The notes under the pieces are model-generated. The model saw only the letters and a program-made list of their open reading frames with translations. It did no database searches and had not been told where the DNA came from. Position numbers and translations under genes: made by a program. Shown here piece by piece: positions 36,707 to 60,739 of a DNA stretch of 64,000 bases (the stretch's first letter is position 1; every line of letters begins with the position of its first letter). The DNA comes from Opitutus sp. (GTDB taxonomy: Bacteria > Verrucomicrobiota > Verrucomicrobiia > Opitutales > Opitutaceae), in the NCBI GenBank assembly GCA_024998815.1, contig JACEUQ010000001.1, positions 310,001 to 374,000 on the forward strand, read 5' to 3'.

Positions 36707-37010
36707 CTGGCTGGACCACCGGCTGGTGCGGGGCAATTACCTGGGGCGGGCCAGTGCCCCCGCCTGGGGACTTTATCTGGTCCTGGTAACCGTGGGTGAC
36801 GCCGACGGGCTGAGTTACTACGCCACGCGCACCCTGGCCCGGCTGCTCACGCTCAGCGAGGACGGCCTGGTCGAGGCGCGTCGGCAGTTAATCGAGGCCG
36901 GGGTGATCGCCTACGCCGCGCCACTTTACCAGGTGCTTTCCTTGGACCGGGGCAGGCCATCGCACACGCTGGCGGTAACGCCGTCGCCGAGCCGGGAGGT
37001 GGGGGCGTGA
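36651..37010 (+). CDS. Small winged-helix-like accessory protein of the IS21-type element
   Basis: This 119-residue protein has a compact helix-turn-helix-like region, TRTLARLLTLSEDGLVEARR followed by QLIEAGVIAYAAPLYQVL. This looks like a replication-initiator or MarR-like winged helix in which two beta strands follow the recognition helix. It overlaps the preceding gene by 56 bp and istA by 4 bp (GTGA at 37007-37010). Function is not known; a DNA-binding role is inferred. Confidence 0.6.
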   Translation: MQKQPIDREQLRRTPAQFSWLDHRLVRGNYLGRASAPAWGLYLVLVTVGDADGLSYYATRTLARLLTLSEDGLVEARRQLIEAGVIAYAAPLYQVLSLDRGRPSHTLAVTPSPSREVGA

Positions 37011-38473
37011 TCAATTACGAACTGTATTGCCGGATAAAACAGGCGGAGGCTGCCGGTCACAGTGCGCCGCAAATCACCCGCTCGCTCCAGTTGCACGTGC
37101 AGACGGTGAGGCGCTGGCAGGCGCAGGAAAAGTACGCGCGCAGCCAGGCCGCGCAGGTGCCTAGGCCAAGCAAGCTCGACGTGCACAAGCCGGCGATCGC
37201 GCGGTGGCTGGAGGCCCATCCGTTCACCGCCATGCAGCTCTGGCAAAAGGTGCGCGAGCGGGGGTACACGGGCGGGTATTCAATTTTGAAAGACTACGTG
37301 CGGCGGGTGCGGCCGAGGAACCTGGAGGCGTTTCTTACCCTCAAGTTTGCCCCCGGCCAGACCGCGCAGGTGGACTGGGGCAGCTTTGGCTCGGTGGAGG
37401 TGGACGGCACCCGGCGGGCTTTAAGTTTTTTCGTCATGGTTTTGGGCTACAGCCGGTTCCTGCATGTGGAATTTACCCTCGGGCAGGGCCAGGAGTGGTG
37501 GCTGGGCTGTCACCGGCGCGCCTTTGAAAAACTCGGCGGGGTGCCGCGCGAGGTGATGGTCGATAACTGCAAGACGGCCGTCCTCTCGCATGTGCCCGGG
37601 ACCGACCCGGTGTACAACGCCCAGTACCTGGACTTTGCCCGGCACTACGGGTTTACGATAAAAGCGTGCGGGCCGGGGCATCCGCAGTCCAAGGGCATGG
37701 TGGAAAACGCGGTGGGTTACGTGAAAAAAAGCTTCCTTGGCGGGAGGCAGATGAATGGGTTTACCGAGCTGGGGCCGGCCGCCAGCTTGTGGCTGGAAAC
37801 GGTGGCCAACGTGCGCGTGCACGCTGAAACCCAGGGCCGGCCGGTGGACCGGCTGCCCGAGGAGCGCGCTGCGCTCCTGCCGCTTAACCCGGTGGCCAGT
37901 CCGGCGGTGCGCACCTTAAGCGTGCGGGCGTCGCGGCGGTGCCGGGTGAGTATCGAAACGAACCGCTACTCGGTGCCCACGAAGTTTGCCGGGGCGCTAC
38001 TCACCGCGCAGATCGAGGGGGCGCAGGTGAGGTTTTATGCGGACCGCACCCTGGTGGCCGAGCATGCCCGCAGTTTTGCCCGCCGCGCCGATGTGGAAAA
38101 CCCCGAGCATGTGCGCGAACTCGAGGAGCGCAAACGGCAGGGGGCGCGGCAGCGCCTGCGGCTACGGTTTTTGGAACTGAGCCCGGCGGCACCCGCCTAC
38201 CAACGGGGGCTGGAGGAGCGCCGGCTCAACGCGGGACACCACCTGGCGACTATCGTGGGTTTGGTGGCCCTGTATGGAACGGAGGCAGTCGGCCGGGCGA
38301 TCGAAAGCGCCCATGAACTCGGCGCCTACTCCAGCGATTACATCCTCAACTTGCTCGAACAACGCGCGCGGGCCTTGCCGCAAGCCGGGCCGATCCACCT
38401 CACCCGCGCCGACGCGTTGGCCGCACTGGAACTCGAACTGCGTCCCCCGGATTTAAGCCCCTATACCCAATGA
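37007..38473 (+). CDS. istA: IS21-family transposase IstA
   Basis: This 488-residue transposase has an N-terminal helix-turn-helix (ITRSLQLHVQTVRRW), an rve-type catalytic core with Asp123 (QVDWGSFG), Asp186 (MVDNCKTAV) and Glu233 (GMVENAVGYVK), and a C-terminal Mu-transposase-like beta-barrel (SIETNRYSVPTKFAG). The start is GTG at 37007, overlapping the small accessory gene; it overlaps istB by 4 bp. It appears intact. Confidence 0.93.
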   Translation: MINYELYCRIKQAEAAGHSAPQITRSLQLHVQTVRRWQAQEKYARSQAAQVPRPSKLDVHKPAIARWLEAHPFTAMQLWQKVRERGYTGGYSILKDYVRRVRPRNLEAFLTLKFAPGQTAQVDWGSFGSVEVDGTRRALSFFVMVLGYSRFLHVEFTLGQGQEWWLGCHRRAFEKLGGVPREVMVDNCKTAVLSHVPGTDPVYNAQYLDFARHYGFTIKACGPGHPQSKGMVENAVGYVKKSFLGGRQMNGFTELGPAASLWLETVANVRVHAETQGRPVDRLPEERAALLPLNPVASPAVRTLSVRASRRCRVSIETNRYSVPTKFAGALLTAQIEGAQVRFYADRTLVAEHARSFARRADVENPEHVRELEERKRQGARQRLRLRFLELSPAAPAYQRGLEERRLNAGHHLATIVGLVALYGTEAVGRAIESAHELGAYSSDYILNLLEQRARALPQAGPIHLTRADALAALELELRPPDLSPYTQ

Positions 38474-39237
38474 AAACAGAACCCGAAAAACCCGATTTAT
38501 TAAAAGACCAGCTCAAGTATCTGAAACTCGGTTACCTGTTGCGTCACCACGGCGAACTGACGGCCGAGGCGGCCAAGGCGCGCTGTTCGCACGCCGAATT
38601 TTTACGCCGACTGGTGCAGGCCGAGACCCAGGACCGCCAGATCCGGGCGCTGGAGCGGCGTATCCAGGCGGCGCGCTTCCCGGTCAAGAAAACCGTCGAC
38701 CAGTTCCAGTGGGACTGGCCCAAGGAGTTGAACGAAGCGCAGGTGCGGCACCTCTTCGAACTGGGCTTTGTCAAGGAGCGCACCAACGCGGTGTTTTGCG
38801 GTGGTGTGGGGCTTGGGAAGACACATCTCGCGAGCGCGTTGGGCTACGCGGCCTGCCAGGCGGGTTACACGGTGCTGTTTACGACGGCGGTGGACGCGAT
38901 CAACGCCCTGGTCACCGCCCAGTCCCTGCACCGGTTGCAAGCCGAGTTGAAGCGTTACATGACCCCTGCGGTGCTCGTGCTCGATGAGGTCGGCTACCTG
39001 CCGCTCGACAAGTCGGGGGCCGACCTGCTCTTCCAGATCGTCAGCCAACGCTACGAACGCGGCTCGCTGATCGTCACCACCAACAAGGCCTACAAACACT
39101 GGGCAGGGATCTTTAACAACGACGCTGGCATCACCGCGGCGATCCTGGACCGCCTACTGCACCGGGCCCAGACCGTCGTCATCGAGGGCAAATCCTACCG
39201 CATGAAAGACCGCCTAGCCGACGAACCTGCAAGCTGA
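38470..39237 (+). CDS. istB: IS21-family ATPase helper IstB
   Basis: This 255-residue AAA+ ATPase has Walker A GGVGLGKTHLASALG (about 111-125), Walker B VLVLDEVGYLPLD and a sensor-1 region LIVTTNKAYKHW. IstB assembles on target DNA and activates IstA. It starts within the last codon of istA (ATGA) and is intact. Confidence 0.95.
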   Translation: MKTEPEKPDLLKDQLKYLKLGYLLRHHGELTAEAAKARCSHAEFLRRLVQAETQDRQIRALERRIQAARFPVKKTVDQFQWDWPKELNEAQVRHLFELGFVKERTNAVFCGGVGLGKTHLASALGYAACQAGYTVLFTTAVDAINALVTAQSLHRLQAELKRYMTPAVLVLDEVGYLPLDKSGADLLFQIVSQRYERGSLIVTTNKAYKHWAGIFNNDAGITAAILDRLLHRAQTVVIEGKSYRMKDRLADEPAS

Positions 39238-39338
39238 CCGGGCCTGATGATCGGCCCCTGGCGGGGCCGGTCATCGGCTTTTACGACAGGTGATTTTGTA
39301 ACCGCCAGAAATAGACGGTGTTCGCGCCGCCGCTCACA

Positions 39339-39693
39339 GCAATCACTGAAGAGCAAACGAAGCTATCCGCACGTGGAGCCCAGCGTGAAAAGCCAGGCCA
39401 AGTTACGCGACAAAGTGCGGGAAGTGCTAGAGGTGCGCAGCCGCAATCAACCCGCAGTGGCGATGGTCCGAAAGGTCAACCAGATCACTCGGGGATGGGC
39501 GACGGCGTTTCATTACGGCAACAGCACGCACGTGTTTAGTAAGCAGCAGGTCTTTGTTCGTAACCGGCTACGCCGATGGCTGTGGCGAAAGTATAGCCGC
39601 ACCCACGGACTCTTCGAGTTCTTCACCGACGACCGTTTGCATGGTCAATACAAACTATGGCACTGGCCGCTTACGGCGGCTTGGAAGCAATGA
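39339..39693 (+). pseudogene. Group II intron maturase, C-terminal fragment
   Basis: The frame beginning at the IS21 right end encodes SVKSQAKLRDKVREVLEV, VNQITRGWATAFHYGNS and RLRRWLWRKYSRTHG, the X (maturase) and GIIM-type C-terminal region of intron reverse transcriptases. The reverse transcriptase palm (YADD) and all upstream parts are missing. The open frame continues upstream into the IS end by chance. The stop is at 39691-39693. Confidence 0.85.
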
Positions 39694-39850: not shown

Positions 39851-40717
39851 TCAATGCGCTTTAATGGCCATGCGAATATCCAAGCAGGTACGCTTGGCGT
39901 TTTCGATTTCTTCGGCCATGGCGCGGGGGTGAAAATCGGGGTTCTGCGTGTAGGGGTGATCCGCCGGCAATACCCACGGTTCCTCGTCGAGACGGTATTG
40001 ATTAAGCTCAGAACTAACGCGGGCGTAGTCGAGCAGTTGCAGCAACTGGTCTTTTGCCTGGGCTTGGGGGAGGTATTGGTCGGCAACGCGCTGGTGGATG
40101 CTGGGGCTAAACTTCCAGTTCTTGAGCAGGGTCGCGCCGGCTTGATCGCTGCGAAACCCAATGTTGAGCTCCTCCCATTTTTCGCACGGGGTGGTTTTGT
40201 CCCACACCAGTTCGGAGCGACCTTTGATCAGCAGTTCGTTGATGACAATGCGTCCGATTCCGTGGAGCAAACCGAGCAGGTAGGCCTCGTCAGGGAAAAT
40301 CCCCACGCGACTGGCTTGAGCTTCCAAAAACACGCCGCAGAAGTAGCTGTAGGCCCAATAATCGTCTGCGGTCATGCTGTACGCGGGCAGGTCTTTCATG
40401 AAGACCTGCTTGGAGAGCGCGGTACCGATCAGGGAGATCACCTGGTTGTAGCCGACCTTGATCAGCGCGGCCTCCACATTGGAGATTTTCGGGCCGATTC
40501 CGTAGCGCACGCTGTTGCTCGCACGGATGGCGTTGGCACTGAGCGCACCGTCAGATTGGAGCAGCTTGGCGACATCATCGATGCCGTTGTTGGGGTCGTG
40601 CAACATGCTGCCGAGTCGTGAGAGGACGGCCATGTTGCCATTGAGGCTCTCCATCTTGCCGAGGATGCGCAAGTATTCTTCTTTTTCCGAGGTCGAGGCG
40701 GTTGAGGGTAAAGCCAT
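39851..40717 (-). CDS. HDOD-domain protein of the chemosensory cluster
   Basis: This 288-residue protein has an HDOD domain over about residues 15-225 (LNGNMAVLSRLGSMLHDPNN, ALSANAIRASNSVRYG, LLGLLHGIGRIVINELL), where the HD dyad is replaced by HGIGR, so hydrolysis is unlikely. It is last in the minus-strand chemosensory run, 45 bp after cheY. In other bacteria HDOD proteins act downstream of response regulators in motility control; a similar output role is inferred. Confidence 0.85.
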   Translation of the reverse strand: MALPSTASTSEKEEYLRILGKMESLNGNMAVLSRLGSMLHDPNNGIDDVAKLLQSDGALSANAIRASNSVRYGIGPKISNVEAALIKVGYNQVISLIGTALSKQVFMKDLPAYSMTADDYWAYSYFCGVFLEAQASRVGIFPDEAYLLGLLHGIGRIVINELLIKGRSELVWDKTTPCEKWEELNIGFRSDQAGATLLKNWKFSPSIHQRVADQYLPQAQAKDQLLQLLDYARVSSELNQYRLDEEPWVLPADHPYTQNPDFHPRAMAEEIENAKRTCLDIRMAIKAH

Positions 40718-40762: not shown

Positions 40763-41134
40763 TCAGCCGAGGCCAAGACAATCCATCATTTTGGATTGTA
40801 GATCTTGCTGGTTGAACGGCTTGGTGAGGTATCCGGTGGCTCCGGTTTTGAGCGCTTCGATGATGGAATCACGACTACCCTCGGTCGTAATCATGAGCAC
40901 GGGAATATCGATCCAGCGAGGGTCCGCACGGAGTGCTTTTAGGAATTCCAATCCGCTCATAACTGGCATGTTCCAGTCTAGGCAGATTAAATTAAAGCCC
41001 GCCGGATCTTCTTGGAGCTTTACGAATGCTTGTTCGCCATTGGCGGCTTCGACGCATTCGGCGCCAAGCAGCGCGGCGGCTGAGCCGACTATGCGGCGCA
41101 TCACCAACGAATCATCAACGATGAGTAGTTTCAT
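40763..41134 (-). CDS. cheY: Stand-alone response regulator CheY
   Basis: This 123-residue receiver domain has the acidic pair Asp7-Asp8 (VDDS), phospho-acceptor Asp53 (ICLDWNMPVMSG), Thr83 or Thr84 (MITTEG) and Lys105 (LTKPF). It probably receives phosphate from the CheA at 54512-57595. Start ATG at 41134; 13 bp separate it from the cheR stop. Confidence 0.92.
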   Translation of the reverse strand: MKLLIVDDSLVMRRIVGSAAALLGAECVEAANGEQAFVKLQEDPAGFNLICLDWNMPVMSGLEFLKALRADPRWIDIPVLMITTEGSRDSIIEALKTGATGYLTKPFNQQDLQSKMMDCLGLG

Positions 41135-41147
41135 GACAGAGTAAAAG

Positions 41148-41999
41148 TTAGGGTTTACGGCGGTAGAATACCGACTCTCCGATCACTTCGGTGGCGAACA
41201 AGTCCTGGTGACTGAGCAGTGATTCCGAGCCGCCGAGCAGCAGGCGGCCGCCTGGATTGAGCGCGGCGGCAAGGCGCTGAAAAAGCCGGTTCTTAAAATC
41301 GGCTTCAAAATAAATGGCGACGTTGCGGCAAAAAAGGAGGTCGAATTGACCGAAGGGGTTGAGGTCATCTTGGAGATTGTGGCGCTTGAAGGTGACGCGC
41401 TTGCGGATGGGTTCGGCGATCGTCCAGATCGGGCCGTTGGCCGTGAAATACCGCTGGCGCCAGACCTCGCCCATTCCGCGCACGATCTCGATCTGATTGT
41501 ATCGGCCGTTGGTGGCGAGCATCAGGGTGCCGGCCGACACATCGGTGCCGATAATTTCAAATTGCTCGGGGCGTACTCCGGGTAATTTGCCTTCCAAGCA
41601 GAGCGTATCGATGAGCATGGCGAGCGAGTAGGGCTCTTGGCCCGTCGAGCACGCCGCACACAGGATGCGCACACGCGCCCGGGTACCGCCACGCAGCAGC
41701 TCGGCGAGTGCGGGCAGGATTTGATTGCGCATTGAGGCCCAGGGCCGCTCGTCGCGAAACCAATACGTTTCGTGCGTCGTCATCGCATCGATGATGCGGT
41801 CACGCAGGCGGTTGGTCGGGTCAGTCTTCGCTAGGCGAATGAAGTCGGGGATGTCGACTGCGCCCGATTGGGCGATGATCGAGCCCAGCCGCGCCTCGAA
41901 TAAGTAGCCCTTTTCTTCGCCGAGGTGGATGCAGCAGGCCTCCGCCACGAAGCGGCTGAGCTGCGCGAGGTCACCGGGTTTTTGTTCGAGTACGGGCAT
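41148..41999 (-). CDS. cheR: Chemoreceptor methyltransferase CheR
   Basis: This 283-residue SAM-dependent enzyme methylates glutamates of chemoreceptors. The N-terminal helical domain (FVAEACCIHLGEEKGYLFEARL) is followed by TTHETYWFRD, the SAM site RILCAACSTGQEPYSLAM, IIGTDVSAGTLMLA, FDLLFCRNVAIYF and GGRLLLGGSESL. It overlaps functionally with cheB, whose stop is only 3 bp from the start. No TPR extension. Confidence 0.94.
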   Translation of the reverse strand: MPVLEQKPGDLAQLSRFVAEACCIHLGEEKGYLFEARLGSIIAQSGAVDIPDFIRLAKTDPTNRLRDRIIDAMTTHETYWFRDERPWASMRNQILPALAELLRGGTRARVRILCAACSTGQEPYSLAMLIDTLCLEGKLPGVRPEQFEIIGTDVSAGTLMLATNGRYNQIEIVRGMGEVWRQRYFTANGPIWTIAEPIRKRVTFKRHNLQDDLNPFGQFDLLFCRNVAIYFEADFKNRLFQRLAAALNPGGRLLLGGSESLLSHQDLFATEVIGESVFYRRKP

Positions 42000-42002
42000 G
42001 GG

Positions 42003-43142
42003 TTATTGGCGGCTGCGGGCCAGTTCAGTTAACCGAGGAGCGATGGCGGGCAGGGCGAGAATTTCGTCTTCCAGTTGGCGGCGCACCACCGCCTGCGGCA
42101 TGCCGTAGATGACCGACGTTGCCTCGTCCTGGGCGATCGACCAGGTGGGCAAGGCCGCTTTGAGCGTGGCCACGCCAGCGGCGCCGTCTTCACCCATGCC
42201 GGTGAGAATCAGGCTGAGCGCCCCGCGCAGAGCGCAGCGCGAGGCCGAGTTGAACAACACGTCCACCGCCGGCCGACAGGAGTTAACCGGCGCAGCGTCA
42301 GTGAGGCGCGTGATAAGACTGCCCTCGGCATCGCGGATAATTTCCAGGTGGCGTCCGCCGGGTGCGATGAGGATGCGTCCCGCGACGACACGTTCGCCGT
42401 CGACCGCTTCGGAGACGCGCAGGTTGCACACCTTGTCGAGCTGTTCGGCCAACGTGCGGGTGAACAGCGGCGGCATGTGTTGCACGATGACCACGGGAAG
42501 GCGGAAATCCGCCGGCAGGCCTGGCAGCAAATCCTGGAGGGTGCGCGGTCCGCCGGTGGACACACCGATGAGCAAAATATCGAGGGTAGCCGGTGGCAGT
42601 ACGCGGCGGCGGGTTGGCTGGGCCGGGGTGGCAGGCGCGGGCGCAGTCGCAACACGATTGCCGAAGAGTCCGCTGGCCGTTGCTGCAGCGCCAAGGGCTG
42701 TGGGCGCGGGTGCGGTGCGGGGCGCGGCGGGAGCGGTATTAATTCGCCGCAGGTTGACCATGTTCACCACATGCTGCAGCTGGCCGCGCAGGCGCGTCAT
42801 GCCTTCCGCAAACGAGGTGGTTTGGGGCTTCGGGATGAAATCGAGGGCGCCGTTAGCCAGCGTGTTGATGGTGATGGAGGCATCGGCACCGGTCGCCCCG
42901 CTGATCATTACGACGGCGACTTTGGGGAAGTCGCGGCGGATGATCGCGAGCACCTCGGGGCCGTTCATCTCGGGCATAAAGACATCGAGCAGCACCAGGT
43001 CGATGGGTTCGGCGGCGAGTCGGGCGAGCGCGAGCGGGCCCGAAGACACCGCCCCGGCCACTTCTACCCCAGCGAGTGGGGTGGCAGCGTCGGTGAGGAG
43101 CTTCCGGTAGAGCGCAGTGTCGTCGACGATGAGCAGTCGCAT
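42003..43142 (-). CDS. cheB: Chemotaxis methylesterase/deamidase CheB
   Basis: This 379-residue protein has a receiver domain (Asp53 in LVLLDVFMPEMNG, Lys105 in FIPKPQ), a Pro/Ala-rich linker (about 130-180) and the esterase domain with Ser195 (GVSTGGPRTL), His222 (VQHMPP) and Asp319 (LTGMGEDGAAG). Phosphorylation by CheA activates removal of methyl groups. The cheR gene follows after 3 bp. Confidence 0.95.
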   Translation of the reverse strand: MRLLIVDDTALYRKLLTDAATPLAGVEVAGAVSSGPLALARLAAEPIDLVLLDVFMPEMNGPEVLAIIRRDFPKVAVVMISGATGADASITINTLANGALDFIPKPQTTSFAEGMTRLRGQLQHVVNMVNLRRINTAPAAPRTAPAPTALGAAATASGLFGNRVATAPAPATPAQPTRRRVLPPATLDILLIGVSTGGPRTLQDLLPGLPADFRLPVVIVQHMPPLFTRTLAEQLDKVCNLRVSEAVDGERVVAGRILIAPGGRHLEIIRDAEGSLITRLTDAAPVNSCRPAVDVLFNSASRCALRGALSLILTGMGEDGAAGVATLKAALPTWSIAQDEATSVIYGMPQAVVRRQLEDEILALPAIAPRLTELARSRQ

Positions 43143-43169: not shown

Positions 43170-44750
43170 TTAACGTGTGGACGTTGCCGGCAGGCAGAAG
43201 GTCATTTCCAAGGTGCGGCCGTCGTCGGAGTGGCGCAGCGCGTGGGTGAGCGAGCGCATGACTTGAATGCCGAGTGAAATGTGTTCGGGGTCGACCGGGG
43301 GGCGCGGGGCATTGGGGTCGAAGCCCCTCCCGTCGTCGGTGATGCGGGCGTGCAAGAAAGCGGCCGTGCTGTTCACCAACAGCTCAACACGCGTGGTTTT
43401 GGCGGCGTCGTTGTTACAGCCGTGATCGAGGGCGTTGAGGGTGGCTTCGCGGATGCACAGCAGCACGTCGTGGCGGGTGTCTTCGCCGAGTTGCGGCAGG
43501 GTGATGGTTAACGTGCGCGCCCATAAGTCCTGAATAGCGTCGATGCGCGGGGCCGAGTCGCCCGGGCACGTCTCGTTGAAAATCGGCATCCAGATCTCGC
43601 CCAGCGGGGTCGCTTCATTGGGCGGATTCCAGTCGAGGCGGCACACCACGATGTCGTCGTCGGCTCCCTTGAGCAGCGTGTTGGCCAGCGTGTTAGCGGG
43701 GGATTGCAGGATACGGTAGGCCAGTGCGATCGGCGGCACTTGCAGGCGTTCGGCGTGGGCTTCGAGGCCGTCGCTGAACAAAACGAGTAACCCGGCTACA
43801 TCGAGAGTAGCAGTGAGTTTCTGCGGCTCGATCTCTGGAAACCAGCCCAGCGGCGCTCCTCCCGGGGCGAGTTGCTCGATGTTACCGCGGCGGTCCGACA
43901 GGATCACCGCAGGGCCTCCGCAATTGAGCACCGATACGCGCCGCCCGCCAAAGTCCACTTCAAGGAAGGTCGCGCTGAGCGAGGTGGATACGGCGAACGG
44001 GTCGGTGTCGTTCCACTGGTTGAGCAGAAAGCGGTTAAAGGATTCGGCGATCCCTTGGCAAGTGGCCGCCTGGTTGGCCATGCCCTCGATGATGCCTTGG
44101 AAATAGGCGGACAGAAACCCCTCCTTGAGCCCGTGGCCGGAGACGTCACCGAGCACCAGCAGGATGCGGTCGTAATCGAGTGCCGTGGTTTTCACCAAGT
44201 CGCCGCCCGCCTCGTTGAGCGGGTAAAACCGGGTGACGAGGTTGATTTTAGCCGAGGTGCAGACAGCGGCATCCAGCGCGGTGCGGGTCAGGCGCTGGTT
44301 GATGTCGGCGATGTCGAGCAACCGGTGGGTGGCGGCCAGTTGCTGCGTGCGGTTGCGGTGAATTTCGCGCGCCTGGCGGAGCGCACGCAGGATGGCGCGC
44401 AGATCGAAGGGCTTGTCCAAAAACTCCACCGCGCCACCGCGCAGCGAGGCCGAAACCAGCTCACGCTCCTGGTTGGCGGTCATGATAACGGTCGCCGTGG
44501 TCGGGGCGTTCACGTTGATCCACTCCAGCAGCTCCAGTCCGCCCATTCTCGGCATCTGCACATCGGTGAAAATGGCCTCAAAGGGAGTCGCGCCGCGTTC
44601 TTTGATCCGCTCAATTGCGTCGAGCCCATCGCAGGCGGAGACCACGCGGATGTCGGCCGATTGGAACATGAACACCAGCATGTCGCGCGACATAGGATCA
44701 TCGTCGACGACAAGGATGTCAGGGGTGGTGGAAGGGGCGGTGTGGCTCAT
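43170..44750 (-). CDS. Response regulator-SpoIIE phosphatase-RsbW-like kinase fusion
   Basis: This 526-residue protein has three modules. Residues 10-130 are a receiver (Asp63 in FTDVQMPRMGG, Lys113 in LDKPF). Residues about 165-375 are a PP2C/SpoIIE phosphatase with EAGGDLVKT, LGDVSGHGLKEGFLSAYF and LFSDGLEAH. Residues about 395-526 are a GHKL ATPase of the RsbW/SpoIIAB type with CIREATLNALDHG and ITDDGRGFDP. The fusion would put RsbU-type and RsbW-type activity in one chain under receiver control, acting on STAS proteins such as those at 57783, 60740 and 63148. That assignment is inferred. It lies 27 bp upstream of cheB in the same direction. Confidence 0.88.
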   Translation of the reverse strand: MSHTAPSTTPDILVVDDDPMSRDMLVFMFQSADIRVVSACDGLDAIERIKERGATPFEAIFTDVQMPRMGGLELLEWINVNAPTTATVIMTANQERELVSASLRGGAVEFLDKPFDLRAILRALRQAREIHRNRTQQLAATHRLLDIADINQRLTRTALDAAVCTSAKINLVTRFYPLNEAGGDLVKTTALDYDRILLVLGDVSGHGLKEGFLSAYFQGIIEGMANQAATCQGIAESFNRFLLNQWNDTDPFAVSTSLSATFLEVDFGGRRVSVLNCGGPAVILSDRRGNIEQLAPGGAPLGWFPEIEPQKLTATLDVAGLLVLFSDGLEAHAERLQVPPIALAYRILQSPANTLANTLLKGADDDIVVCRLDWNPPNEATPLGEIWMPIFNETCPGDSAPRIDAIQDLWARTLTITLPQLGEDTRHDVLLCIREATLNALDHGCNNDAAKTTRVELLVNSTAAFLHARITDDGRGFDPNAPRPPVDPEHISLGIQVMRSLTHALRHSDDGRTLEMTFCLPATSTR

Positions 44751-45088: not shown

Positions 45089-49204
<4,116 letters not shown>

Positions 49205-49549: not shown

Positions 49550-50326
49550 TCACCGTTTCCAGTCGTCTAGGTCGTAAAGCGCTAGCAGTTGGGTCAGCGC
49601 GCCCGATTCGCGCATTTTACGCACGGTGGCCGTTAACTGCTCGGCGCGGGCGGTGGAGACCGGCTTTTTGGCGGTAAACGCGACGTGGAGCGGCGAACCC
49701 TCTTTGGCGAGCGCACCGGCTGAATGGATTTCGCCGGTCGGAACGCGCAGTTGTTTCAGCGTCCACAGCATGACGCTGGCGTCTTCGACCGCCGCATCAA
49801 CCGCCCCGTTACGCAGGTTGCCTATAGTGGATTCGAGCGGGGCGTCGCCGGTACCAAATTGCACGGCGGGCGCAGTGCCCTGTTTGAGGTAGGTGTCGAG
49901 CGGACCGTCATTGTCGTAGGCATACCCGGAAGCGGCGGCTAGGCGGATCGATTTGAGCGATTCGATGCCCTTGAAGCGCCACGCGGTGCCCTTCTTAACG
50001 TAGAAAATATTCCGCATGGCACCGATGGTGAGTTCGGGCAAAATTGCTCCAGGAGAATCGCTCGGGCCGGCACCGAGGATGGCGTCGATTTTGCCCTCGG
50101 CGAGTTCGGCGCAGGCCTGCGCCCAGGGGCAAGTCTTGTAGTTAATGGTGTCGTTGGGGAAAGCGGCGCGGAGCAGTTCGACGACGTAGCCGGGGCGTTC
50201 AGCGGCAGGATCGCCGTTGTAAGGCATCCAGTTGTCGGCGCGCACTTCGATGATGTCGGCGCGTAGCGGACTGGAAAGCCCAAGGAGGAGGGCCGGGAGG
50301 AGGAGGAGGCGGGTAGGGAGGTTCAT
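49550..50326 (-). CDS. Periplasmic substrate-binding protein, SBP_bac_3-like (copy A)
   Basis: This 258-residue protein has a signal peptide (LLLLPALLLGLSSPLRA, cleavage near residue 23) and a two-lobed extracellular solute-binding fold (WMPYNGDPAAERPGYVVELL, CAELAEGKIDAILGAG, LRNGAVDAAVEDASVM). Two cysteines in CPWAQAC may form a disulfide. There is no ABC permease or ATPase nearby, which suggests sensing rather than transport. It is a tandem duplicate of the next gene, with close similarity over the whole length. Confidence 0.85.
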   Translation of the reverse strand: MNLPTRLLLLPALLLGLSSPLRADIIEVRADNWMPYNGDPAAERPGYVVELLRAAFPNDTINYKTCPWAQACAELAEGKIDAILGAGPSDSPGAILPELTIGAMRNIFYVKKGTAWRFKGIESLKSIRLAAASGYAYDNDGPLDTYLKQGTAPAVQFGTGDAPLESTIGNLRNGAVDAAVEDASVMLWTLKQLRVPTGEIHSAGALAKEGSPLHVAFTAKKPVSTARAEQLTATVRKMRESGALTQLLALYDLDDWKR

Positions 50327-50397
50327 GGGAAAGGGGGTATCAGGCGTGGGGCTACTTAGTAATCGGCACAGGTTGGGGTTAACTGGAGTGAGATCGG

Positions 50398-51174
50398 TTA
50401 TTTAGCCCAATCGTTCATTCCGTAGCGTTCGAGTAACCGGGCGAGTTCGCCCGATTCGCGCATTTTTTTCACGGTGGCCGTCAGCTGTTCGGCGCGGGTA
50501 ACGGACGCTTCCTTTTGGCCCGTAAACGCAACATGGAGCGGATAACCCTCCTTGGTCAGTGAACCTGCGGAGTGAATTTCTCCAGGTGTGGCCTGTTTCT
50601 GGATGAGGTTCCAGTGCATGACATTGGGGTTCTCGACGATCACCTCCACGTCGCCTTTACGGAGTTGAGCGATGTTGTCATCGAGCGGGTTGTCCCCGGT
50701 TCCGAAGCGCACTGCAGGCGCTTTGGCTCGTTTGAGGTAACTGTCGAGTGGTCCGCCGAGGTCGTAAACATAACCGGCGATCGCGGCTAGGCGGATCGAT
50801 TTAAGCGAGTTGATCCCCGTGTAGCGCCAAGGATCGCCTTTTTTAATATAGAAACAGTTCCGGTAGTCACCGATGGGTAATTCGGGGATGACGGCGCCCG
50901 GGGCATCGCTAGTGGTTGCGCCGATGATGGCATCGATCTTGCCCTCGGTGAGATCGGTGCAGGCCTGGGCCCACGAGCAAACGGAATAGTTGAGGGTATC
51001 GTTGGGGAAAGCGGCGCGGAGCAGTTCGACCACGTAGCCGGGTTGCGCGGCGGCCGGATCGCCGTTGTAGGGCATCCAGCTATCGGCGCGAACCTCGATG
51101 GTTTCGGCGCATAGCGGACTGGAAAGCCCGAGCATCAGGGCGGGGAGGATGAGGAAGCGGGAGGGAAGATGCAT
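50398..51174 (-). CDS. Periplasmic substrate-binding protein, SBP_bac_3-like (copy B)
   Basis: This 258-residue paralogue has the same length as copy A, a signal peptide (LILPALMLGLSSPLCAE) and the same motifs (WMPYNGDPAAAQPGYVVELL, CTDLTEGKIDAIIGA). Cysteines are at the same place (CSWAQAC). It is 71 bp upstream of copy A and downstream of the chemoreceptor gene in transcription order, so a role in ligand presentation to the receptor or kinase is plausible but unproven. Confidence 0.85.
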   Translation of the reverse strand: MHLPSRFLILPALMLGLSSPLCAETIEVRADSWMPYNGDPAAAQPGYVVELLRAAFPNDTLNYSVCSWAQACTDLTEGKIDAIIGATTSDAPGAVIPELPIGDYRNCFYIKKGDPWRYTGINSLKSIRLAAIAGYVYDLGGPLDSYLKRAKAPAVRFGTGDNPLDDNIAQLRKGDVEVIVENPNVMHWNLIQKQATPGEIHSAGSLTKEGYPLHVAFTGQKEASVTRAEQLTATVKKMRESGELARLLERYGMNDWAK

Positions 51175-51415: not shown

Positions 51416-53173
51416 TTAGATCTTAAACTTGGCGACGAGTTGGTTAAGGGTGGACGACAGCGCGTTGAGCTCGCCGACGCTGGCGCTAATTCTGGCCGCG
51501 CCCTTGGCTCCGTCGGCTGCGGCGGTGGACACCCCGGCGATATTACGGGCTACTTCGCTCGACCCGTCGGCGGTCTGTCGCACGTTTTGCGAAAGGGTAG
51601 TGGTAGCACTGGATACCCCATGGATTGTACCGACGATTTCCGAGGTGGTGGCGGACTGCTCTTCGACGGCCGCCGCGATCGAGGAGGAGATTTGAGAAAC
51701 CTGTTCGATGATCTTCCCGACCTCCTCGAGCGATTTGATCGACGCGCCGGTGTTGCTCTGGATGAGCCCCACCTGTTTGCGGATATCCTCAGTGGCGGCA
51801 GCCGACTGGCGGGCCAATTCTTTGACCTCGTTGGCCACCACCGCGAAACCGCGTCCAGCCTCGCCGGCACTGGCCGCCTCGATGGTCGCGTTGAGCGCCA
51901 GCAAGTTGGTCTGTTCGGCGATGCGGTTAATTAACTCCACCACCTTGCCGATCTGGCGGGCCGAGTCGTCGAGTTTACCCATCAGTTCGCGGGTTTGGCG
52001 CGCCTGGGCATCGGCCTTGCGGGCGATCTCGGATTCATTGGCACAGTTGCGTGCAACTTCCTGAATGGAGGAGGACATCTCCTCCATGGCCGCAGCCACT
52101 GTGGTGGTGGAATCGGTGATCTGTGAGGCCGACTGCGACATGGCTTTGGAGTTACTTGATAACTGTTCGCCGGCGGCGGCCACCGTGCTGGCTTGAACCG
52201 TGGTTTCTTCAGCGGCGGCGGCCTGGGTGTGGGCGGTGTCGGCGAGGACCGAGGCGGAGCGGTTCAGGGCCTGGGCATTGGTCGCAAGTTCGCCAACGAT
52301 GGCGCGCAGTTGGCTGCTGGTGGTGTTGAGTGCCGCGCCGAGTTCGCCGATCTCATCGTCACCCAAGTTGTTCATCGTGCGGGTGAGGTCACCTTGGGCG
52401 ATGGCTTGGGTCGCCTCCACGGCCTTACGCAACGGTTGGGTCACCTGCCGGCGCACCACCCAGATGGCCATACCGCAGAGCAGCAAACTGGCGGGCACCA
52501 AAATGTAGAGGGATGTCTGGATGGTTTGCACCGTGGTGGTATCGGCTCGGGCGATCGGCTGGGTCAGAATGAAGGCACCGTGGACTTCGCCCGACTTCCA
52601 GTTTTCCATTTTGAAACCGAGCATGTCTTTGCCGTCCCCAGTCGGGCTGGTGGCGGGGTCGCCGTGACAGCTCAGGCAGTCTTTGGACAGCGTGATGGGC
52701 GCGGCGTAGACGAGCAGACCGCGGGCCTTGTCCTCCGCAAAGTATTCATGGACTCCGGGCTGGCTGACCGCTTTGAGAATCGGTGCCTCGTCAACGGTGG
52801 GGGCATGTTCTTGGTTGCGGGGGTTGTCTCGCACCGTGCGAAAACCAATTCCGAGATCTTTGGCCACTGCCTCAGCACTTTGCCAAGCCGCGACAATTGG
52901 TACGGAGCGGTAAATCGTGGTGTCGCGGTAACGGTCGAGCCCCACTTTTTTTAACTCCGCCTGAAGTGAGGCCATGTCAAAGGCGCCTTCCTTATGCAGC
53001 CGGGCCATGGCCTCCCGGGTGTTTTCCGCATTTTGAACGATGCTGTGCATCGCATGTTTGGTTTCGTTCACGCTGTTGCGGTGGCCGATGACCCAGGCGG
53101 TCGCCAGGGCGATGGTGGTGGTAGTTACAATTGTCGCGGCAGTGAGCAGCGGGAGCTTGAGGCTGAGTTTCAT
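51416..53173 (-). CDS. Methyl-accepting chemotaxis protein with Tll0287-like CxxCH sensor domain
   Basis: This 585-residue receptor has membrane helices near 10-30 and 220-241. The periplasmic domain carries [11 protein letters not shown] (about 166-176), a c-type haem-binding motif found in Tll0287-like (DUF3365) domains. HAMP follows to about 300, then a cytoplasmic MCP signalling domain with the hairpin tip [20 protein letters not shown] and the usual coiled coils. It should form arrays with CheA and CheW. The haem motif points to redox or gas sensing; this is inference. A satellite lies directly upstream of its start. Confidence 0.93.
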
Positions 53174-53205: not shown

Positions 53206-53297
53206 GGGGGGGATGAGCTAGGAGCTGGGAGCTGGGAGCTGGGAGCTGGGAGCTAGGAGCTGGGAGCTGGGAGCTGGGAGCTAGGAGCTAGGAGCTA
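53206..53297. repeat. AGCTnnn satellite block
   Basis: About eleven heptamers (agctggg, agctagg) form one block that ends at the target TA of the IS630-type copy. The block resumes after the element at 54413, which shows that the insertion split one satellite. Confidence 0.9.
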
Positions 53298-54412
53298 GTG
53301 CTTACTTGCAATAATAAGTGATATTGTATCCGCTTTGTAGATGGGACGAAAAGCCGTGCGAATCACTTGTAGCGAGGGGGATCAGCAATCCCTAGAAAAA
53401 CGGGCAACCAGCCGGATTGAGTCGAGGCAGCGAGTTGAGCGCGCCCGGATGATCCTTGGGTGCGTGAGTGGCGAGCAGGTGCAAGAGGTGGCGCGCCGCT
53501 GCAACACCAGGCCGAACACCGTAATAAAGTGGAGGGATCGCTTTGTGCTGCTTGGCATGAAGGGGCTGGATGATGCGGCACGGCCGGGCGCGAAGCGCAC
53601 CTACGGTGAGGACTTTCGAGATCGGGTGCTGGCTTTATTGGAAGGGCCACCCCCTCCGGGGCAGGCGCGCTGGGATGGTCCAGCGGTGGCCCGTGTGCTC
53701 GGCGGCTCGGTGCACGCGGTCTGGCGAGTGCTGCGCAAGGAGGGCATTTGCCTGCAGCGCCAGCGCTCGTGGTGCGTGAGCACTGACAAGCAGTTCGCAG
53801 CCAAGGCAGCCGATATCGTCGGGCTCTACCTGAGCCCACCGGAAAAGGCATTGGTGATAAGTGTGGATGAAAAGCCTGGCATCCAAGCCCTAGAGCGCGC
53901 CACCGGTTACGTGGAGACCGACAATGGTAAAATCGTCCAGGGACTCAAAAGCACCTACAAGCGCCACGGTACACTCAACTTGTTCGCTGCCCTTGATGTG
54001 GCCACGGGCTTGATCAAGACGCAGAAAACCACCCTTAAGCGCCGGGAGGAGTTCCTGCTGTTCATGGACCAAGTGGTGGCGGATCACCCGCCCGAGAGAG
54101 AACTCCACGTGATTTTGGATAATTATTGCACCCACAAAAAGTGCGACGCTTGGCTCGCTCGGCACCCCAATGTCCACTTCCACTTTACCCCAACCTCGGC
54201 GAGTTGGCTCAATCAAGTTGAAATCTGGTTCGGCATACTAACAAGGAAGGCGCTACGGGGCGCGAACTTCAGAAGCGTCGCCGAACTTAGTCAGGCCATT
54301 GACGCTTTCGTCGCCGCCTACCTGCCCAATGCCAAGCCGTTCAAGTGGCGCAAGCGCGAGGTCAAGGGAAGCCAACTCAGAAATACTATCATTAATCTAC
54401 GCAATTAAGCAC
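53298..54412 (+). mobile_element. IS630-type element, copy 1 (1115 bp)
   Basis: The element runs from gtgcttacttgc to gcaattaagcac between TA dinucleotides at 53296-53297 and 54413-54414. It is identical in protein sequence and length to the inverted copy at 59336-60450. It has one intact transposase. Confidence 0.92.
53341..54408 (+). CDS. IS630-family transposase (copy 1)
   Basis: This 355-residue transposase has an N-terminal helix-turn-helix pair (EVARRCNTRPNTVIKWRDRF; HAVWRVLRKEGICLQ) and a DDE core with Asp176 (VISVDEKPGIQAL), Asp260 (HVILDNYCTHK) and Glu294 (SWLNQVEIWFG). Unlike the 4971 element it needs no frameshift. The stop is 4 bp inside the right end. Confidence 0.93.
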   Translation: MGRKAVRITCSEGDQQSLEKRATSRIESRQRVERARMILGCVSGEQVQEVARRCNTRPNTVIKWRDRFVLLGMKGLDDAARPGAKRTYGEDFRDRVLALLEGPPPPGQARWDGPAVARVLGGSVHAVWRVLRKEGICLQRQRSWCVSTDKQFAAKAADIVGLYLSPPEKALVISVDEKPGIQALERATGYVETDNGKIVQGLKSTYKRHGTLNLFAALDVATGLIKTQKTTLKRREEFLLFMDQVVADHPPERELHVILDNYCTHKKCDAWLARHPNVHFHFTPTSASWLNQVEIWFGILTRKALRGANFRSVAELSQAIDAFVAAYLPNAKPFKWRKREVKGSQLRNTIINLRN

Positions 54413-54511
54413 TAGGAGCTAAGAGCTAGGAGCCAAGGAGATAGGCGCTTAGGGTTTGGAGCTCCTAGCTCTAAGCTCTAAGCTCTAAGCTCTAAGCTCC
54501 TAGCTCTAAGC
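54413..54511. repeat. AGCTnnn satellite block next to cheA
   Basis: Units agctaag, agctagg, then agctcct, agctcta follow up to the stop codon of cheA at 54512. The middle has a degenerate part (near 54440-54460). Confidence 0.85.
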
Positions 54512-57500
54512 TCATTGCGGATGGAGTACGTCGGTGATCGCCAGGCAGAGGCGCTCGCGGTCGAGTTTAGTTTCGTAGCGGTTGATGCCCGCCACCTTTG
54601 CCCGTTCGTGGAAATCTTCGGTGTCGCGGGACGATACCGAAATCACCGGGAGGTTTTTGAGGCGGGCATCAGCGCGGATGCGGGTGGTCAGTTCGAAGCC
54701 GTTCAAACGGGGCATTTCGAGGTCGGTGATGAGGATGTCGTAGCTGCCTTTTTGCAGGCGTTGCCAGGCCTCTTCGCCGTCTTTGGCAAAATCGAGGGTT
54801 TTAAACACGTCGTGGAGTCCGCGTTTAATCGCCTCGCGGAAAAACAGGGTATCCTCGGCCACCAGCACCCGTAAACCGGATAACCCCTCCTGCAACGCGG
54901 CGCCCTGATCCATGCCAGCGGCGCGCATGATGCCGTAAAGATCGAGGAGGATCGTGAGGCGGTCGTTGATCGTGGCCGTGCCCAAAACACCCGGCGCACG
55001 CAGCGAAACGGCGTCGAGCGAGCCGGTGACCAGGTCGGCCGCATCCATAATGTGTTCGGTGATCAAGGCGACGGGGTGGTACACCAGACGCGGCACGATG
55101 ATGTGCACCTCGGCGGGAAGCGGCGCGCCCGGGGTGACCGGCAGGTGATCCTGGATACGCAACAGGCGCAGGGTGGGGCCGTCTTTTTGGCGCAAGTAAT
55201 CGTGGCCACCGAGGCGCTCGATGCGGCTGGTGTCGATTTTTTCGATACGCCCGATGTTGGCGATGTGGAGCGCAAAAATCTCCGGCGTGCCGTCTTTGAA
55301 CACCAAAATACGCTCCGATTCCACAGCGGCGGCCGCCTGCGTGAGTTGGCGCACCGCAGTGTCGGTGGGCAGGCGTCCGGTGGCGATGCCGGCGAGGTCG
55401 AGGATGAGGGCGATTTCGCCTTGGCCGAGCAGCGTGGCCCCGGAGTAAAGCGAGGTGCCTTGCAGGTGGCGGCCGAGCGGTTTGACGACGATTTCTTCGG
55501 TGTCGGCGATGGTCTCGACTTGCAGGCCAAAGCGGCGGTTATCGAGTTTCAAAACGAGTACGTAGCCGGGTTTGTCCGCCGTGTAACGGTCGGGCAGGCC
55601 GAGCAGCGCAGAGAGGTTGAGAACCGGCAGGAGTTCTTCGCGCAGGCGGATGATGTGCGAAGCGCCAAACGCCTCCAGCGGGCGATCGGGGCCGGGGCGC
55701 ACGATCTCGACCAAGTTGAGCTGCGGCACGGCAAAGTGGCGGGTGTCGCAGCCGACGATTAAGGCGGGGATAATCGCGAGCGTTAAAGGCAGGCGAATGA
55801 TGATCGCGGTGCCCTGGCCGAGCACCGAGTGGATTTCCACGCGGCCACCGAGTTTTTCGATGTTGGTTTTAACGACGTCCATGCCGACGCCGCGGCCGGA
55901 CACGTCGCTCACCACGGCGGCCGTCGAAAAGCCCGGAGCAAAGATCAGTTGCCACGCTTCGGACTCGGTCATTTTGGCGGCCTGTTCGGTCGTGATGACA
56001 CCTTTCTCGATCGCCTTGGCTTTGAGTTTTTCGGGGTTGAGACCGTGGCCGTCGTCACGGACTTCGATCTGCACGCGGCCCGCCAAATGCGCAGCGGAAA
56101 TGCGCACGTGGCCGGCGGCGGTTTTGCCAGCTGCAACGCGTGCGGCGGGCAACTCGATGCCGTGGTCGGCGGAGTTGCGAATGAGGTGGGTGAGCGGGTC
56201 GGAAAGCCCCTCGATAAGGGCGCGGTCGAGCTCGACGTCATCGCCGACGGTTTCGAGCTGGATTTCTTTGCCCAGCTTCTGGCCGAGGTCGCGGATGATA
56301 CGGTTAAATTTACCAAATAGGCCGCCGACGGGTTGGAGGCGGGCGCGCATGATGGTGCGCTGGAGGTCGGTCGTGACGCCGCTGATACCTTGAACAACGC
56401 TGGCGAGGCCATCGATCGAGGGGGCGCTGGTGGCTGAGGCGTTTTCCCGCGACGGGGCGGCGATGCGCAGGAGTTGGTTGCGGCCGAGGACCATCTCGCC
56501 GGCGAGGTTCATAAGGCCGTCGAGCAGCGCGACGGAAATGCGCACCGTGTCCTCAGTCTTGGGTTTTGCGCCGTGTGCGGGAGCGGCAGGCACGGCGGGC
56601 GAGAGAGGCGTGGGAGTGATGCTGGTGGACGTCGGCGCGGGGGGCGGAGTCGTGGCGACGGTGGAGGACGGAGAGACGGTGGCTGGAAGGGCGGTGGGCG
56701 GAGGCGCGGAATCGAGACCATGGGCGGGACGCCCATGCCACGCCGGATCAGGAGCGGCTTTGGCCACGGGGACGGGGGCGGATTTGGAGGGGGCGAGCGT
56801 GGGTTGGGTGTTTAACCACTCCTTTAACAGTTCGCTGGGGACGGCGGTGAGTTGGTTCTCGGGGAGATTAAAGGCGCAGAGCAGTAGATCGGGCTCCATC
56901 GCGGTGGAAAAGAGCAGCGAGCAGATCACGTCGGCGGCGAGCTCTTCGCCGAGGCCGCCACCACCATCGAGACCACCGTCGAAGCCACTCATTTCAGTGG
57001 CGGTGTCGATGAGTGTACCTAGGGCTTCGATGTCGCGGAAGTAGTCGAGCAGTGTTTGGCCTTTGGCCTCGATGTCGGCGTTCAGGTTGAGTTGCACGAC
57101 GTAGACGTTTTGACCGTGATGGAGGCCGTTGCGCACCAGTTCGGGGTCGATGCGGAAGCCGCTCAAGTAGAGGGGCAGAATCGGCTTGTCGGGTGCTGCG
57201 GCTTTTTTCGGCGGCTCGGTGTGCAGCAGCGCGTGCAGTGCGGTGCGCTCGGCCGAGGTGTCGGTGCTCGCGGCCTGATCGGGCGCGGCGACCATGGCTT
57301 TGAGTTTGTCGGTGCCGGAGAGGAACAAGTTAATCAGGTCGCGGTTGGCGATCATGCGGCCGTCGCGCAGGAGGGCCATGACGCTCTCCATCACGTGGGC
57401 GAGGTCGGTGATCGGGGTGAGGCCGAAAAAACCGGCGGTGCCTTTAACACTGTGAATGGCGCGGAACAGGCGGTTGAGAAGTTCGGCGTTTTGCGGCGAA

Positions 57501-57595
57501 GCTTCGAGGGCGACCAGGTCGTTTTCGAGGGTTTCCAGGTGCTCGTTCGCCTCTTGGACGAACAGCCCGAGCATCTCGTTTTCTTCGTTACTCAC
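54512..57595 (-). CDS. cheA: Hybrid chemotaxis histidine kinase CheA with C-terminal receiver
   Basis: This 1027-residue protein begins with an Hpt domain (His48 in FRAIHSVKGTAGFFG), then a second folded segment (about 125-265) and a long Pro/Ala/Thr-rich linker (about 270-350). The dimerisation and ATPase parts follow, with LMNLAGEMVLGRNQLL, LIRNSADHGIELP, VRDDGHGLNPEKL and GRGVGMDVV. Two CheW-like coupling domains come next (about 615-740 and 755-880). A C-terminal receiver holds its Asp in ILITDLEMPRLNGFEL. CheA couples receptors to CheY/CheB. The double CheW module and the fused receiver are unlike the classical enzyme. The linker contains a small palindromic insertion at 56719-56737. Confidence 0.93.
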   Translation of the reverse strand: MSNEENEMLGLFVQEANEHLETLENDLVALEASPQNAELLNRLFRAIHSVKGTAGFFGLTPITDLAHVMESVMALLRDGRMIANRDLINLFLSGTDKLKAMVAAPDQAASTDTSAERTALHALLHTEPPKKAAAPDKPILPLYLSGFRIDPELVRNGLHHGQNVYVVQLNLNADIEAKGQTLLDYFRDIEALGTLIDTATEMSGFDGGLDGGGGLGEELAADVICSLLFSTAMEPDLLLCAFNLPENQLTAVPSELLKEWLNTQPTLAPSKSAPVPVAKAAPDPAWHGRPAHGLDSAPPPTALPATVSPSSTVATTPPPAPTSTSITPTPLSPAVPAAPAHGAKPKTEDTVRISVALLDGLMNLAGEMVLGRNQLLRIAAPSRENASATSAPSIDGLASVVQGISGVTTDLQRTIMRARLQPVGGLFGKFNRIIRDLGQKLGKEIQLETVGDDVELDRALIEGLSDPLTHLIRNSADHGIELPAARVAAGKTAAGHVRISAAHLAGRVQIEVRDDGHGLNPEKLKAKAIEKGVITTEQAAKMTESEAWQLIFAPGFSTAAVVSDVSGRGVGMDVVKTNIEKLGGRVEIHSVLGQGTAIIIRLPLTLAIIPALIVGCDTRHFAVPQLNLVEIVRPGPDRPLEAFGASHIIRLREELLPVLNLSALLGLPDRYTADKPGYVLVLKLDNRRFGLQVETIADTEEIVVKPLGRHLQGTSLYSGATLLGQGEIALILDLAGIATGRLPTDTAVRQLTQAAAAVESERILVFKDGTPEIFALHIANIGRIEKIDTSRIERLGGHDYLRQKDGPTLRLLRIQDHLPVTPGAPLPAEVHIIVPRLVYHPVALITEHIMDAADLVTGSLDAVSLRAPGVLGTATINDRLTILLDLYGIMRAAGMDQGAALQEGLSGLRVLVAEDTLFFREAIKRGLHDVFKTLDFAKDGEEAWQRLQKGSYDILITDLEMPRLNGFELTTRIRADARLKNLPVISVSSRDTEDFHERAKVAGINRYETKLDRERLCLAITDVLHPQ
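56719..56737. repeat. Palindrome within the cheA linker
   Basis: catgggc/gcccatg arms with gggac loop form a perfect hairpin inside the coding region, translated as part of AWHGRPAHG. It looks like a mobile palindromic repeat that has settled in frame in a tolerant linker. Confidence 0.6.
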
Positions 57596-57782: not shown

Positions 57783-58088
57783 TTAGGCGGTGAGGCCGAA
57801 GCGTTCGTTGAGTTTGAGCAGACCGAGCAGGCGGCGGACGTCGGGCGTGGGGTTTTCGGCGCGGAAGCCGATTTTGCGGTTCTGGGTTTCGCGGTAGAGG
57901 GCGATGAGCAAGTTGACGCCCTTGGAGTCGACCAGGCGCGAATGGCTGAGGTCGGCGACGATGGTTTGGGCGGACACGTGCTGGGCCATGGCCGCGAGGA
58001 TCTCGGTGCGCAGGGCGTCGATGTTGGTTGAAAGTAAATCGCCGTCGAAAGTGACGCGCAGGGTGGTGTCGGTGAGGGTGGCTTTCAT
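57783..58088 (-). CDS. STAS-domain protein (RsbV/SpoIIAA-like)
   Basis: This 101-residue single STAS domain carries the phosphorylatable Ser55 in RLVDSKGVNLLIALY. It is encoded between cheW and cheA, in the same direction. A free STAS protein in the middle of a chemosensory operon suggests that it is a partner of the phosphatase-kinase fusion at 43170-44750. Compare the paralogues at 60740 and 63148. Confidence 0.88.
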   Translation of the reverse strand: MKATLTDTTLRVTFDGDLLSTNIDALRTEILAAMAQHVSAQTIVADLSHSRLVDSKGVNLLIALYRETQNRKIGFRAENPTPDVRRLLGLLKLNERFGLTA

Positions 58089-58829: not shown

Positions 58830-59324
58830 TTAGGCGTTCGCGGTGGCGGGCAGTGAGAGGAGGGCGCCGATGTTGAGCAGGGTGAGCAGGCCGAGGGGTC
58901 TCGGAATCACGCCGCTCACGCAGGCATGGTCCATGCCCGACATGAGTTCGGGCGGCGGGGGCAGCACATTGTCAGGGCGCGTGAGAATGTCGCCGACCTC
59001 GTCGACGATGATGCCCAGCAAATCGGTGCCGGCCATTTCGGACTCGGCTGGCGGCAGGGCCAGGCGCGCCAGTTCCACGGTGGATTTAAACACCACGCAG
59101 CGGCTCGACGGCTGTGTGGCCTGAGGCTGCAACCCTAGGCGCTGGTCCAAGTCGAGGGCGGTGAGGATTTGGCCGCGCAGGTGAATGAGCCCGCGCACGG
59201 TGGGCGGGGCGCGGTCAACCGGCGTAATCGCGGGCTGGCGGAGGATTTCGCGCACCCACAGCAGGTCGCACGCGTACCACCGGCCTTGGGTTTTGAAGGT
59301 GAGTAATTGAGTAGGGGCGGACAT
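58830..59324 (-). CDS. cheW: Chemotaxis coupling protein CheW
   Basis: This 164-residue protein is a single CheW domain (TFKTQGRWYACDLLWVREIL, RGLIHLRGQILTALDLDQRL, ILGIIVDEV-type strand). It links receptors to CheA. The start ATG at 59324 is only about 12 bp from the end of the IS630-type copy 2, so its native promoter was displaced or lies beyond the element. Confidence 0.9.
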   Translation of the reverse strand: MSAPTQLLTFKTQGRWYACDLLWVREILRQPAITPVDRAPPTVRGLIHLRGQILTALDLDQRLGLQPQATQPSSRCVVFKSTVELARLALPPAESEMAGTDLLGIIVDEVGDILTRPDNVLPPPPELMSGMDHACVSGVIPRPLGLLTLLNIGALLSLPATANA

Positions 59325-59335
59325 GGGGCGATCTA

Positions 59336-60450: not shown

Positions 60451-60739
60451 TAGGTGTGGCGGGCGAAGTGGGGCGGAAATCCGGAGGGCGGAGACAGCGG
60501 CTGAATGAATCGGGGGGCGGAGTGTGGCTGGTGGGGGAGCAGGAGTTACATCAAGGGCCTAGGTGTGGGCGTGAGTTCCTATGTATTCGGCTCATTTGGC
60601 GGTTAATTGAGCGAGCAAGTCAGGTTTACTGCGTATTTTTTGTGCCTATTTCGGGTTCAGGAATATGTATTCTTAGGCGTTTAATGATTTATTTTCTGAC
60701 GGCATTTAGGAACTGGGTCAGCGTGCCGATATTCTAGTC
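60451..60739. other. Gene-free interval before a STAS gene
   Basis: A 93-codon frame here has no recognisable content. The second half is AT-rich (about 60600-60700) and could hold the promoter of the STAS gene at 60740. Nothing else was seen. Confidence 0.4.

Follow-up and report, generated by a model that had tools for sequence, protein, structure and literature searches.

A receiver-phosphatase-kinase protein in a chemosensory gene cluster of Opitutus sp., a likely HsbR/CrsR-like switch

In the Opitutus window analyzed here (the whole stretch of DNA, 64,000 nucleotides long), a chemosensory gene cluster encodes a protein of 526 amino acids, hereafter TRI, in which a receiver (REC), a PP2C phosphatase and an HATPase_c_2 kinase domain follow one another in a single chain (43170..44750, minus strand, ATG start). 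This anatomy is real and, judging from its sequence, the protein is probably functional. By analogy with characterized systems, we consider it likely that TRI is an HsbR/CrsR-like switch protein, which would act on Ser55 of a small STAS protein encoded at 57783 after a His-Asp relay to D63 of its receiver. One protein could then both add phosphate to, and remove it from, a small switch protein belonging to the same sensory cluster.

The order of domains is the one that an earlier note on this DNA had read from the sequence, and all three match their Pfam families above the gathering cut-off: a receiver at residues 12-124 with phosphoacceptor D63 (44379..44717, minus strand; Response_reg, 85.9 bits), a SpoIIE/PP2C phosphatase at residues 194-374 (43629..44171, minus strand; SpoIIE, 77.3 bits) and an RsbW/SpoIIAB-like kinase at residues 420-518 (43197..43493, minus strand; HATPase_c_2, 49.8 bits). 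The motifs quoted at the time are found in the translation. Residues D16, D17, D63, T91 and K113 are present in the receiver, D184, D202, G205, H206, D327, G328, D365 and D366 in the phosphatase, and E435, N439, D472, G474 and G476 in the kinase; we take their catalytic roles to be those of the corresponding residues in CheY, SpoIIE and SpoIIAB. In an alignment of 13 rows, window copy included, the listed residues of all three domains are invariant. A second alignment of 24 rows, which again includes the window copy and leaves out L044, L046, L056-L058, L061, L064, L067, L069, L071 and L072, shows the same except at D16 and T91: T91 is at least 90% conserved, and D16 is in neither conservation list. 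D63 is invariant in both. The domains and their expected catalytic residues are thereby established, and a TRI in which one catalytic domain lacks essential residues is ruled out, as all are present and conserved in the alignments.

The AlphaFold2 model of TRI has a mean pLDDT of 83.9; a long helix (residues 117-161) joins REC to PP2C, and residues 482-489 form a low-confidence stretch. Among chains matched over more than one domain, Foldseek placed Pseudomonas aeruginosa RssB at the top, and the RsbU-RsbW part of Rv1364c appeared from rank 7 on. Query TM was only 0.25-0.32 and the rmsd 16-20 Å, so that single domains match and the domain arrangement does not. The PP2C domain matches the fold of the RssB, RsbX, SpoIIE and SiaA phosphatases. 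Receiver-domain matches dominated a second structural search. At the sequence level, the kinase part matches anti-sigma F factor (SpoIIAB) chains weakly (phmmer E 0.029), and the phosphatase part is similar to a Sphaerobacter phosphatase (E 0.00059) and to Rv1364c (E 0.0044). Rv1364c, from Mycobacterium tuberculosis, resembles TRI structurally and in combining a PP2C (RsbU) with an RsbW domain in one polypeptide, but has a PAS input and a fused STAS in place of the receiver. RssB, which gave the top structural matches, shares with TRI a REC and a PP2C-fold domain but is not known to have a kinase domain; the presence of HATPase_c_2 rules out that TRI is an RssB. The same genome encodes a second kinase-phosphatase fusion (C2:1090911-1092578), in which HATPase_c_2 precedes SpoIIE in one frame of 596 amino acids.

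The cluster around TRI lies on the minus strand. From low to high coordinate, domain searches identified an HDOD protein (39851..40717), a CheY-like single receiver (40763..41134), CheR (41148..41999), CheB (42003..43142, 27 bp from TRI), TRI, a hybrid histidine kinase (45089..49204), two tandem, similar SBP_bac_3-like proteins (49550-51174, both below the Pfam cut-off), a chemoreceptor (51416..53173), CheA (54512..57595), the STAS protein (57783..58088, 101 amino acids; PF01740, 41.7 bits) and CheW (58830..59324). The gaps from the HDOD gene, at the end of the tight run, to TRI are of 45, 13, 3 and 27 bp and would fit a single transcript. The hybrid kinase, a candidate phosphodonor, contains HAMP, PAS, HisKA, HATPase_c, REC and Hpt domains behind a CHASE3/HBM-like N-terminus that scores below the cut-off, and CheA is composed of Hpt, dimerization and ATPase domains, two CheW stretches and a C-terminal REC. 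Two copies of a DDE-type insertion sequence surround CheA-STAS-CheW (53295-54415, plus strand, and 59333-60453, minus strand); each is 1121 bp long, and they are 100% identical and in opposite orientation. An IS21-type transposase and IstB pair, then a fragment with a group II intron maturase domain, lie at 37007-39693 (plus strand), and ORFs that agree with these in length and start adjoin another CheA of the genome (L084).

The chemoreceptor carries a Tll0287-like domain with the motif CLSCH at residue 166. Tll0287-like domains fused to signaling modules are reported to behave like NO sensors (PMC12889525). Locus L046 likewise has the domain, with the motif CLVCH; the receptor of the closest relative, L041, has neither the domain nor CLSCH, and heme input is therefore not general in the close clade.

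At E ≤ 1e-50, TRI was matched in 14 of 56 genomes, its own included, among them 4 of the 13 of the genus. In a sample of the phylum the count was at least 7 of 288 genomes, own included, a lower bound since five candidates per genome were scored. A peptide-pattern scan yielded 34 TRI loci, assigned by title to Verrucomicrobiota (30), 'bacterium' (2), Acidobacteriia (1) and Phycisphaerae (1); the single pattern was taken from verrucomicrobial rows, so this near-restriction to Verrucomicrobiota says nothing on other phyla. A search at E 1e-20 found no plasmid-borne relative.

Gene linkage is established. STAS lies within 600 bp of TRI in 20 of the 34 loci, by a 15-bit cut that misses weak ones (for example, a 98-aa ORF after TRI in L066), while CheA is found in 13 and CheA or CheB in 18. 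Among the 21 loci that extend at least 6 kb to either side of TRI, 11 have CheA and 15 have STAS. These tallies include L042 and L044, in which TRI is absent from the gene-order table, and the locus sets overlap: some loci stand in two sets under different labels (for example, as L028 and L042, whose contigs are equally long), and L049 and L050 are near-copies. The 4.24-Mb genome has three CheA matches, and the chance expectation of CheA within 10 kb of a random gene, for this genome only, is about 1.5%. On a tree of 30 TRI rows, a 'che' label that was assigned by hand, and that depends partly on contig ends, needs seven changes. Because 74 of 500 shuffles need no more than that, neither clustering nor a single origin of che linkage can be read from the tree. 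Two long branches, L036 and L038, meet in this tree. A family of 585-780 amino acids, X0, neighbors TRI-STAS at 16 of the 40 loci (for example, L034:11025-12941). The three X0 proteins scanned have no MCPsignal match, and the weak likeness of X0 to an MCP tip (85.6% hhalign probability over 100 columns) is one that coiled coils could also give.

By analogy we infer the phosphodonor, the substrate, which way the switch works and what it acts on downstream, as follows. A His-Asp relay would phosphorylate D63, most likely from the Hpt of the hybrid kinase and possibly from CheA too. The state of the receiver would be passed through the long helix and would favor either the RsbW-like kinase, which would phosphorylate Ser55 of the STAS protein, or the PP2C, which would take the phosphate off. 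The state of STAS would then decide its binding partner, and what lies downstream may be either a sigma factor, to which the kinase domain would bind, or some part of the chemosensory array. HsbR and CrsR differ in which STAS form is bound (PMC6482189), so that they do not tell the direction of the switch in TRI.

Among possible donors we rank first the hybrid kinase, which carries its own Hpt, because HsbR receives its phosphate input from an Hpt protein (PMC6482189). Within the close clade, CheB lies at most 29 bp and a hybrid kinase at most 420 bp from TRI in seven of seven loci; Hpt is found in the window kinase and in the six close-clade kinases scanned, L044 being the seventh. It is this constancy that makes it rather unlikely that CheA and not the hybrid kinase is the physiological donor of D63. 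Che-linked lineages in which no hybrid-kinase match of at least 300 bits lies near TRI (for example, L063, L068 and L070) argue for CheA. Genome G007, however, retains TRI, although its CheA-like ORF (L027:7261-8823, 520 amino acids), which overlaps the start of the hybrid kinase ORF, matches Hpt only; this ORF is either a truncation or an assembly error, and the argument holds unless the fault is in the assembly. The same locus of this close relative holds two additional STAS genes that diverge from CheW (L027:9858-10675).

The candidate substrate is the STAS protein at 57783. Its D54-S55 pair is invariant in the 13 STAS proteins aligned and is presumably the phosphoacceptor position, by comparison with SpoIIAA. 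Between its gene and TRI, which are 13 kb apart, lie the hybrid kinase, the two SBP-like genes, the receptor, an insertion sequence and CheA. Seven STAS_2 matches above the cut-off, in six reading frames, were found in the genome, so a STAS partner of TRI is not unique; moreover, STAS is placed between CheW and CheA, away from TRI, in L027, L036 and L038 as in the window, and occurs in only one of the seven close-clade loci (CheA in two), mostly because contigs end, although in L045 the region upstream of the hybrid kinase is seen to hold other genes. These observations would suit a TRI whose kinase and phosphatase act on a STAS protein from another locus of the genome, with the one at 57783 belonging to CheA and CheW. 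We find this quite unlikely: in other lineages STAS directly follows TRI (the 20 loci above), and the window protein aligns with these, though at only 22-28% identity in the TRI-adjacent rows that have proper ORF ends. Another STAS-domain protein, of 169 amino acids and with a DST motif, is encoded at the start of the window (262-771, plus strand).

The output of the switch may be transcriptional, through a sigma factor, or may be the chemosensory array or motor, the state of STAS altering the activity of CheA, CheW or the receptor. The position of the STAS gene between CheW and CheA points to the array, as does the target proposed in Campylobacterota, a receptor (PMC9239204); no sigma factor or diguanylate cyclase gene was found among the 20 window ORFs scanned. 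Characterized switches with the architecture of TRI, however, control RpoS or FlgM/FliA (PMC6482189), the genome has FliA and a group-2 sigma factor, and TRI-STAS stands without Che genes nearby at several loci (for example, L047, L060 and L062), all of which makes an array or motor output unlikely. Nine Sigma70_r2 matches were found in the genome, and the three scanned further are RpoD, FliA (above its cut-off) and an RpoS-like group-2 factor that falls below the RpoS cut-off (303 versus 378.7 bits). FliMN_C matches indicate that flagellar genes are present; FlgM, a short family, was not detected in the genome at E ≤ 1. A more elaborate scheme would have two inputs, the chemoreceptor (predicted to bind c-heme and possibly to sense NO) through CheA and the hybrid kinase through its own Hpt, converge on TRI, which in Verrucomicrobiota would control a non-RpoS sigma factor (FliA or group-2) or an array feedback. 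This scheme is speculative, and we hold it to be the least probable of the readings considered; if true, the convergence would link chemosensing to transcription through a switch that does not work by way of RpoS.

The earlier note had proposed opposed phosphatase and kinase activities under one phosphorylation switch, in a STAS and chemosensory setting that it believed not to be known. The first proposal stands insofar as both domains, with the residues expected, lie behind a receiver and a STAS candidate is in the same cluster; that they would act in opposite ways on STAS under control of the receiver is taken from HsbR and CrsR. The novelty argument fails, because the setting has precedents in three reports. 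In Shewanella oneidensis the genes for CrsR and CrsA belong to the che1 locus (PMC9855816), stage-1 F7 clusters carry STAS (anti-sigma antagonist) genes and a serine phosphatase (PMC7184735), and in Campylobacterota a bifunctional REC-PP2C-kinase protein has been proposed, which may affect a chemoreceptor through a STAS target (PMC9239204). Unprecedented surroundings for TRI are thus ruled out, and our locus surveys show that its association with STAS and chemosensory genes also recurs within Verrucomicrobiota. No literature linking Verrucomicrobiota to such switch proteins was found, most subscription papers being outside the search.

The closest comparison is with HsbR of P. aeruginosa and CrsR of S. 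oneidensis, both of TRI-like architecture and acting on an anti-sigma antagonist (PMC6482189). TRI has the REC-SpoIIE-HATPase_c_2 order and catalytic residues of this type and, in the same locus, a STAS protein with a candidate serine. With HsbR-HsbA it shares the REC-PP2C-kinase/anti-sigma order, a STAS substrate and Hpt input from hybrid kinases (PMC6482189), both of them candidates in the case of TRI. It differs in that HptB is a separate protein, whereas in the window Hpt is fused to the neighboring kinase, and in that the partners described are FlgM, RpoS and HsbD, of which FlgM was not detected in the Opitutus genome. CrsR-CrsA is alike in architecture and STAS partner (PMC6482189) and in lying inside a chemosensory locus (PMC9855816), but CrsR controls RpoS, and the RpoS-like factor of Opitutus scores below the family cut-off; moreover, che1 has CheD, which is absent from the 20 window ORFs scanned, and the window CheA carries a REC. 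SypE of Vibrio fischeri also combines REC, a serine kinase and PP2C and controls a STAS protein, SypA, but its order, kinase-REC-PP2C, rules out that TRI is a SypE (PMC3610818).

The F7 stage 1/2 set comprises STAS, a serine phosphatase, CheY, CheA, CheW, an Aer2-like receptor, CheR, CheD, CheB and an McpA-like receptor (PMC7184735). The window has STAS, the phosphatase, CheA, CheW, CheY, CheR and CheB; it does not hold this gene set, as CheD is missing from the ORFs scanned, its sole receptor is of Tll0287 type and its CheA has a REC. For proteobacterial F7 clusters with these genes, evidence of a stress response is reported, and the function of stages 1 and 2 is still called unclear (PMC7184735). 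The wiring itself is known from Shewanella and Pseudomonas: TRI carries it into another phylum, and is not a new kind of system. A chemosensory-linked partner switch, known in Proteobacteria and proposed in Campylobacterota, is thereby extended to Verrucomicrobiota, where it recurs in several branches, and in which one can ask what these switches govern where RpoS is not obviously applicable.
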